Assembly (NCBI GenBank): GCA_021158465.1
Contig: JAGGUN010000043.1
Span: forward strand, 1-34,158
Source of the DNA: a bacterium
Lineage (GTDB): Bacteria > UBP14 > UBA6098 > 4484-93
Direction: 5' to 3'
Length of the DNA: 34,158 nucleotides
In this document: positions 7,848-20,672 of the stretch, piece after piece
Position numbering within the stretch: the first letter of the stretch is position 1
Layout: every line of letters starts with the position of its first letter
Translations under genes and position numbers: made by a program
Notes under the pieces: model-generated
What the model was told of the DNA's origin: nothing
Seen by the model: only the letters and a program-made list of their open reading frames with translations
Databases searched by the model: none

Positions 7848-10800
7848 ATGAGAAGAGAGGTTTTGGTGGTTTTTCTTCTGTTTTTCTCCTTGGTGGGTGC
7901 TGCCTTCGGGCAGTTTCCCAGAGGAGGGTGTCTGAAGCCAGCGGGTGGATATGGGCATTACGCCGGTTGTGAGTATCAGAAGATACTCTTTTATGCTTAC
8001 GACCCAGACGGGATTGATACATCGAGTATATCGGTTGCTGTTGGTGCTGATACATTTTATTACCCTGACCATCTAACCTTTTACGATGACTCTCTTATCC
8101 TTTTCACCCCGACTGATCCCTTTGCCAATCGGGAGTCGGTTTATGTTGCTCTTCTTGCTGCGGACGATATTTACGGTAATCATCTTGTGGGTGCTCCGAG
8201 GGAGAGCTGGTTTCGGATGGACCTTGACAGACCATGGACATTTGGTCCTGTTTTCCCCCCTAACGATACGACGATAACGGTAACCTTCCCCGACTCAATC
8301 TCGGCTCATATACTCGATACAACCTCAGGGATTATTGATGCTTCTGTGACATTTCACATAAGCTGGCTTGCCAACCCTGACGGGGCAGACTACACCGTTT
8401 CCTCTGCTGGAGTACACTACTATAGGTGGTTTGACGGTCTGGCTGTGATTGATAGCACTATTGTCTATTTTGCACCTGAGGATTCGATTAGTGTTTGTCT
8501 TCACGGAGTTGACAATGTTCCGCAGGATACATTTTTATGTGGTCCGCATTTCAGCGATACATTGTGCTGGCACTTCTTTATTGATGCTCTCGGACCCCGG
8601 TATGAGGTTCTTTATCCGCCGTTGAATGACACGGTGGCGTGCGACTCCGTTGTGTATAAGTTCTGGGATGGTTTTGGTGTGGATACAACCCGCATAAGGA
8701 TGTATGTTAATGGGCAGTTTTACGCTGATAGGAGTTCACATTCGGAGATAGTAAGGCTTCATCCGGATACAGTGCTTGTTGTGTATTATGACCCTGGGAG
8801 CTGGAGTACAGGGACCAGGGTTGCTCACAGAGTAATATCTGTCAGGGATAGCATTGGTAATGTGACCGGTGGTGGGGTTTCTAAGTATTTCTGGATAGAC
8901 CGGTCGCCCCCGTATGGTGAAGCTCCAAGCCCGGCGGATGGAGCTTTCACCGACAGCTTGGTTGTTTCCCTCGATATACAGGACAGTATTGTAGGTGTGA
9001 ACATATCGACCGTTGTTGTCTCAGTCAATGGGGACAGTAGGAGCTACCCGGCTGGTGGTGCGATGAGCTGGGATGGAACGACTTTGATATATGACCTCTC
9101 AGCGGCAGGATACAGCTTTGGGGATGGTGATTCTGTGGAGGTGTGCCTTGAGTATGCGGAGGACAGGTTGACTGCTTCTGAGTGTGGTCCGAATGTGATG
9201 ACAGAGCCTTTTTGCTGGTATTTTTTCGTGGATCAGACCGGTCCTATAGCGGAGATAATCTCCCCGTCCGAGGGGACATTTACCGCCTGTGATGATGAGC
9301 GGATTATCATCTATCTCTATGACCCATCGGGTGTGGATACGGCAACTGTTGTGCTCGTTGTGAACGGAGCGACATACCATATATCTGCAGATACGCTTGA
9401 ATACATAAACGACACGCTCTATTTTACTCCCCCTTCACCCTGGGAGACAGGGACCGTTAATATCTCTATTACCGAAGCACAGGATATATTTGGGCATACG
9501 CTTGTTGATGCTCCAGTCACCGGTAGTTTCAACTTTGATGATGAGCCTCCTTTCGTCACATCGCTTTTGCCGGCGGATGGTGAGATGGTATCCGATTCCA
9601 CTCCGGTTATATCTGTTGGTCTCTCGGATGCAGGAGCTGGTGTTGACCCGACCACTGCTCGCTTGAACATAGGAGGAGTTTCATATGAGTATGGGGTAAC
9701 CCCCGGGTTCTCCTGGTCGGGAGCTGCTTTGAGTTTCAACACGGAGGAGGCGGGAGTTGTTTTCCGTCACGGGGACACGGTTCTTATCTGCCTTGAGGTA
9801 GCTGACGCTATCGATGAGGAGCACTGTGGTCCGAATGTGCTTGACACCTGTTGGACGCTGTTCTTTGACCTTGCAAGCCCGATAGTTGAAATGACATTCC
9901 CTTCAGAAGGGGTATACACCGCCTGTCTCAGGCAGGATATGCAGTTCTACATATTTGACCAATCAGGAATTGATCCATCGACTATCTGGCTTGAGGTGGA
10001 TGGGCTCAACTACTTCTACCCGTCCGGGATGGTCTATACGAACGACACCCTCTATTTCACTCCGGGAGCTGACCTTGTTGGGCTGTCCGATACCGTCTGG
10101 ATAAGGGTGATGGGCGTCGAGGATTCCGTTGGAAACGGGATTGAAGAGCCTTACAGTTGGTATATTATCCTCGATACCCAGCCACCTTATGTAACAGGAT
10201 ATTCCCCTGCTGATGGAGAGCGTGTGTCGAGTGGGTCTCCGCTTATAAGCATCGGCATAGCGGATGATGGAATAGGTGTCTTACCTTCGAGTATCCTTTT
10301 CAGTGTTGAGGGGATGGAGTATTCTTTGGATTCGGGCGGTGTTTCCTGGGACGGTTCGATGATTCATCTCGACTGTGTGGCAGCGGGGTTGGAGTTCTCC
10401 GATGGTGACACTGTCGATGTCTGTTTTCTCGAGGCGTCTGACAGTGTTTCTGTGAGGTTCTGCAGTCCGAATGTTCAGACTGCTGATTCCTGCTGGAGCT
10501 TTATAGTTGACCTATCCGGTCCGACTGCGAGGCTTATATCTCCCGAGAACCTCGGCTTTTCTGCCTGCGGATACGATACGATAATAATCCTTCTGACCGA
10601 CCCGAACGGTGTTGTCCCGGAGAGCATTTGTGTGGCTGTAAACGACACCGAATACACGCTTTCTGACCCACAGCTTGCATACTCCAACGACACCCTGTAC
10701 TTCTATCCGGATGCCCCGTTTGCTTCAGGCGATACGGTAACGATAGAGATAATCTCTGCTTACGATATCCTTGGGCACCCGATGGCGGGGGTAGCGTCCT

Positions 10801-20672: not shown

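Follow-up and report, generated by a model that had tools for sequence, protein, structure and literature searches.

Background

How do the cysteines of a giant exported protein pair when they recur as a lattice through 19 repeated units, and what is such a protein for in an uncultured and probably anaerobic bacterium? An avoidance of cysteine in exported proteins is reported for obligate anaerobes (PMC12453122), which makes exported cysteine pairs in such an organism surprising. The question is raised by a bacterial contig of 34,158 nucleotides, referred to here as the window. A first-pass annotation, made from the letters of the window alone, had proposed that each unit consists of an A and a B module with four cysteines. 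We find that this observation is real and conserved over the whole group to which the organism belongs, and that the idea of a disulfide lattice is right while the wiring guessed for it is wrong. Read from its sequence, the protein is probably an Ig-like surface fibre of a known sort with a new, predicted disulfide clamp between its A and B domains.

A giant exported protein of 19 two-module units

A single frame on the forward strand (7848-20672) encodes 4,274 aa plus a stop and opens with a signal peptide. The start of this frame is supported by a sigma-70 promoter with a 12/12 match and by AAAGGA, both upstream. Cutting the protein at module boundaries and aligning the pieces recovered the 19 A+B units that had been described, each about 206-224 aa long, with a 110-aa extra domain preceding unit 19. 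The layout is as follows.

7771..7799, +, sigma-70 promoter-like site TTGACA-17-TATAAT, 12/12 (consensus match only)
7834..7839, +, AAAGGA, ribosome-binding-site-like, 8 bases 5' of the ATG (sequence)
7848..20672, +, giant exoprotein gene, 4,274 aa plus stop
7848..7916, +, N-terminal signal peptide region, residues 1-23, hydrophobic leader MRREVLVVFLLFFSLVGAAFGQ (sequence)
Units and extra domain, placed by unit alignment:
7917..8588, +, unit 1 (A1+B1)
8589..9236, +, unit 2
9237..9872, +, unit 3
9873..10514, +, unit 4
10515..11144, +, unit 5
11145..11789, +, unit 6 (A6-B6 within the AlphaFold2 model)
11790..12422, +, unit 7
12423..13061, +, unit 8
13062..13688, +, unit 9 (A module above the Pfam Big_5 cut-off)
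13689..14330, +, unit 10
14331..14966, +, unit 11
14967..15599, +, unit 12
15600..16241, +, unit 13
16242..16859, +, unit 14
16860..17498, +, unit 15 (two additional cysteines, 3133 and 3174, both in its B module)
17499..18146, +, unit 16
18147..18773, +, unit 17
18774..19421, +, unit 18 (B1 Cys shifted by two residues)
19422..19751, +, extra domain of about 110 aa with three cysteines, outside the lattice and without Pfam match (also Pfam scan)
19752..20387, +, unit 19 (A Cys and B2 kept; without B1 and B3)
20388..20669, +, C-terminal domain: CHU_C, type IX secretion signal, type-B-like, with its own Cys pair 4181/4266

The signal peptide and the CHU_C C-terminal domain agree with the earlier view that the protein is exported. 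We refer to the cysteine of the A module as A Cys and to the three of the B module as B1 (VCL), B2 (CGPN) and B3 (CW). The four-cysteine pattern does hold with few exceptions: 74 of the 94 cysteines fall in the lattice (A Cys 19/19, B1 18/19, B2 19/19, B3 18/19), a regularity far beyond chance at an overall cysteine content of 2.2%. Unit 19 is missing both B1 and B3 and has both A Cys and B2, and the two-residue offset of B1 in unit 18 would leave it on the same side of its strand. From B3 to the A Cys of the next unit the spacing is 25 residues at 15 of 17 regular junctions, and 26 and 23 at the remaining two. Pairwise identity between units is only about 31-43%, so the lattice appears to be old rather than a trace of recent copying.

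The unit is a pair of Ig-like domains

AlphaFold2 modelling of residues 992-1415 with 81 sequences gave four beta-sandwich Ig-like domains with a mean pLDDT of 96.8 and a pTM of 0.80, in keeping with the Ig-like modules of the first-pass annotation. In the model, the final two strands of B carry B1 and B3, the loop connecting these strands carries B2, and A Cys is found in the long loop that comes after strand one of A. Ig-like folds present these two loops, the one of A and the one of the domain after it, at the A-B junction. The best structural matches are tandem Ig chains, among them titin I65-I70 (3b43, Z 15.1, rmsd 9.6 over 356), Robo1 and the GhpA fragment 9flu (Z 12.1, rmsd 8.9 over 321). 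Such matches to titin, Robo1 and GhpA reflect a common arrangement and not kinship.

The suggestion that the unit defines an undescribed family survives in part. Its A module partly belongs to Pfam Big_5 (PF13205, cut-off 23.6 bits): A9 scores 26.1 bits, A6 14.5 bits, A10 and A14 have no match, the entire protein reaches 86.6 bits, and 53 of 81 two-unit stretches are touched by the model. No B module tested matched at any Pfam cut-off, the four-Cys A+B unit as a whole had no match in Pfam, NCBIfam or PHROGs, and the unit profile found nothing up to E 1 among all PDB chains, GhpA fragments included. Big_5 thus resembles the A module in fold and sequence but describes no B module, no two-module unit and no conserved cysteines. 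A viral origin was considered and rejected, with no relative in viral contigs and no PHROG match; the viral fold matches were generic Ig-like tail proteins.

The units are conserved in a group without recognised Dsb or VKOR proteins

Within the source genome, a query of two units found 101 matches, spread over many contigs. The profile search that had been suggested as a check on the annotation was carried out, and returned matches in 17/17 genomes of the phylum-level group, with 57 to 155 matches per genome (no more than 150 candidates were scored in each, and some counts are at-least values); four genomes of other groups gave no unit match. Named records among the relatives are candidate division Zixibacteria bacterium 4484_93, Candidatus Zixiibacteriota SpSt-1142 and UBP14_UBA6098. 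Several other families of the group have giants of their own, 3,807-4,132 aa long with 17-19 profile matches each. In a comparison with seven giants, units 1, 3 and 4 each match their counterpart of the same number in all seven, and unit 2 does so in six. In the L048/L049 family many of the later units also keep their order, shifted by one. The giant appears to have been assembled before the group diversified.

Where bacteria fold proteins oxidatively, DsbA is generally present together with either DsbB or VKOR. Across the group's 17 genomes, models for VKOR (PF07884), DsbA (PF13462 and PF01323) and DsbB (PF02600) gave no match above cut-off and two below it (in G010 and G016); the same models did find matches in control genomes. 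Loss of these genes from all 17 assemblies is unlikely, because the source genome is 97.6% complete. Nor did COX1 exceed its family cut-off in any of the 17, consistent with an anaerobic life.

Two independent cysteine pairs, one of them across the A-B junction

Pairing was assessed by the joint loss of cysteines in 524 aligned units from 89 proteins. Both loops were required to be covered, because permitting truncated matches gave a weaker phi of 0.66 whose exceptions were mostly cut-off A modules. Within one unit, A Cys and B2 occur together in 504 cases and are jointly missing in 19, with a single unit keeping only one of them (504-1-0-19, phi 0.97). For B1 and B3 the corresponding numbers are 410 with both, 103 with neither and 11 with one (410-4-7-103, phi 0.94). 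In the four cross pairs between these two sets the partners are independent of each other, with phi of 0.04-0.08 over the same units; 97 units have only A Cys and B2, and 12 have only B1 and B3. Joint losses are spread over 13 proteins for A Cys/B2 and 62 for B1/B3, and the observed numbers were reached in none of 5000 within-protein permutations. For A Cys/B2 the permutation margin is small (19 observed against a null mean of 13.1 and a maximum of 18) because its losses cluster in few proteins.

An unsupervised scan of the same 524-unit alignment by background-corrected mutual information compared 21,321 column pairs; B1-B3 came first with a z of 25.4, and A Cys-B2 took tenth place with a z of 8.3. 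Non-cysteine couplings A17-P191 (z 7.9) and S14-Y193 (z 6.5) place in contact the same two loops as A Cys-B2, with which the geometry of the fold also agrees, and A188-E198 and E182-S205 set the strand register of B1-B3. Co-loss, co-evolution and a shifted-frame control scan together indicate co-dependent pairs of the kind found in disulfide-stabilised Ig-like domains, and the repeated disulfide arrangement that had been suggested is supported as a prediction. The predicted pairs, one inside B (B1-B3) and one spanning the A-B junction within a unit (A Cys-B2), are well supported; that both disulfide bonds actually exist is what we infer from them. Total cysteine counts in 58 complete family members (23 even, 35 odd) have no even bias, so some cysteines in these proteins are unpaired; this and the failure to find DsbA, DsbB or VKOR above cut-off count against the disulfide reading.

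Two other readings of the four cysteines have to be weighed against this one. The wiring first put forward, in which a CGPN-CW bond closes a loop within B and a further link ties B to the next A so that a crosslink falls at every unit boundary, draws on the closeness of all four cysteines, which lie within about 50 residues over that boundary at near-constant spacing. It is now highly improbable, since the loss of B2 does not follow that of B3 (phi 0.07), VCL pairing with CW instead, and since the control scan placed B2 and the A Cys of the next unit at rank 1704 with a z of 1.5 (best neighbouring pair z 2.1). Moreover, A Cys of unit 1 has no preceding B, and unit 19 keeps B2 without B3. A coupling seen in the B+A frame had also suggested the B2-next-A pair as a candidate; this candidate was dropped after the same-unit phi of 0.97 and the failed control, A Cys pairing with the CGPN of the following B in one unit. 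A site for zinc or iron in place of disulfides would suit an anaerobe without oxidases, and both the failure to find DsbA, DsbB, VKOR and COX1 above cut-off in the 17 genomes and the lack of an even bias in cysteine totals speak for it. It is nevertheless improbable, as the two pairs come and go independently (97 versus 12 units), which is incompatible with a site of four ligands, and as co-evolution sets B1 and B3 at facing positions on two adjacent strands.

With two predicted disulfides per unit as the preferred reading, the A-B joint is predicted to be crosslinked and the B-A joint is not, so that a uniformly stiff fibre is not implied. Giant Ig-like chains are known, and it is the repeat with a predicted clamp between domains in each unit, independent of the strap within a domain, that matched no library searched. 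In these genomes, co-dependent cysteine pairs without DsbA, DsbB or VKOR matches would point to another oxidant or to oxidation after export, and either would be news. We raise tentatively, and with some doubt, that a whole uncultured, probably anaerobic group forms disulfides at hundreds of exported cysteine pairs in each genome, the interdomain clamps of its giant fibres among them, without a DsbA/DsbB or VKOR route.

Export and a probable role as a surface stalk

Scanned alone, residues 4181-4274 score 30.1 bits against CHU_C (PF13585, cut-off 27), and 21.8 bits when the entire protein is scanned. The NCBI type B signal TIGR04131 gave full-length alignments to four family members at 22.1-29.7 bits, the signal of the giant scoring 22.1, below its cut-off of 35. 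Structural comparison of the C-terminus placed the C-terminal part of PorU on top (Z 10.7, rmsd 18.0 over 185 residues in two domains), nearly tied with KIT chains. SprA is above cut-off in the source genome (G000:C31) and in 15 others. Both cysteines of the C-terminal signal are present in 46 proteins of the group, neither in 18 and only one in 4; some paralogues end in type-A-like tails without the pair. The signal of the giant (20388-20669) and of 45 other family C-termini is a variant that can be written C...P.PFTPNG ... VC.GT..LAR, in which the two cysteines are co-dependent.

Taken together, the giant is probably an outer-surface stalk of 19 clamped A+B units, exported by the type IX route and serving as an adhesive or capture fibre. 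By sequence, the chain consists of a Sec leader, 19 units each made of two Ig-like domains, a single extra domain and a signal of the CHU_C/type B kind, the last carrying a third, separate cysteine pair. As co-evolution suggests, the B1-B3 disulfide would strap the last two strands of each B domain and the A Cys-B2 disulfide would clamp each A domain to the following B, giving 19 two-domain rods joined by B-A junctions that have no crosslink. By parallel with other surface proteins, the exported chain may be held on the cell by its C-terminus and reach outward, and with 38 Ig-like domains, each taken as roughly 4 nm long, it would extend for an estimated 150 nm; its adhesive or capture role is proposed from the same parallels. 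Paralogues carry heads within their N-terminal 600 aa, ahead of the same units: vWA above the Pfam cut-off in L011 (G000:C45) and L092 (G004:C15), with a weaker vWA match in L063, and IgGFc_binding (222-244 bits) in L014 (G000:C7) and L066 (G002:C157). The units therefore probably work as a stalk. No separate N-terminal head precedes unit 1 in the giant itself.

Known giant surface proteins suggest two more specific roles. GhpA of Aureispira is a type-IX-secreted protein of 5,898 aa that spans its heptameric filament, and GhlA is its counterpart in Litorilinea (PMC11205867, PMC13319060). Copies of the giant might likewise bundle lengthwise into a thick, cell-catching filament, a grappling hook, given that both GhpA and the giant are long chains of Ig-like domains, that GhpA is type-IX secreted and the giant has a type IX signal, and that GhpA fragments are among the best structural matches. 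This is unlikely, because unrelated animal Ig chains match as well or better (titin above), no PDB chain matches in sequence and there is no sign here of oligomers; GhlA, moreover, is built of DUF11 domains, for which the giant has no match, and disulfides are not described for either protein (PMC11205867, PMC13319060). Somewhat less likely still is that the giant is a mobile adhesin for gliding, moved along by the type IX machinery. The giant size and the CHU_C/type-B-like C-terminus recall SprB of Flavobacterium, a giant adhesin that its type B signal directs to the gliding track, but such signals serve static anchoring too (PMC12618676). Furthermore, the C-terminal match of the giant is below the curated cut-off and its signal domain has an additional cysteine pair, some paralogues have the type-A-like tails, and no cognate PorP/SprF-like shuttle gene adjoins the giant or was found among the scanned genes of the window.

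As a stalk, the giant also invites comparison with other crosslinked or tandem adhesins. The Mobiluncus mulieris adhesin (7,651 aa, 51 Ig-like domains) is a giant whose domains are covalently crosslinked by ester, isopeptide, disulfide and thioester bonds, but these lie within single domains separated by a flexible interdomain linker, and its anchoring is Gram-positive (PMC10619420). One of the two links predicted for the giant, by contrast, joins two domains. SiiE of Salmonella, a structural match at Z 9.9, is also a long tandem of bacterial Ig-like domains; going by its structure title it is a calcium-binding adhesin, and the giant has cysteines and type IX export instead. None of SprB, GhpA and the Mobiluncus adhesin is shown to be a relative, and the parallels would be ones of design.

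Genomic neighbours

Four neighbouring genes have recognisable products.

2679..6110, +, C25 (gingipain-family) peptidase with a type A sorting tail
20740..21525, -, DUF1573/HYDIN-like Ig protein
21519..23831, +, PorZ-like type IX secretion system protein (full-length match, below the curated cut-off)
24800..27958, +, LptD

The order giant, DUF1573, PorZ, GNAT, LptD is conserved only within the genus (L067), so the neighbours cannot tell the function across the group.

Other genes of the locus deserve mention on their own account. Two lie on the minus strand and have no Pfam match: a 1,371-aa exported protein with repeats of the GWSDGG...TFTAHY type (28453-32568), and a protein rich in GVYGY/GSYG-type repeats that is open at the window edge (32695-34158). 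Beside the C25 peptidase, the end of an ORF at 2202-2666 (+) matches positions 306-370 of the 370 of a serpin, and it looks like a truncated or decayed protease inhibitor. At another locus, L016, a 530-aa minus-strand ORF at the low-coordinate end has a C-terminus, CDGVTYSNECYAHRAGV, that by eye resembles a Kazal-type protease inhibitor motif.
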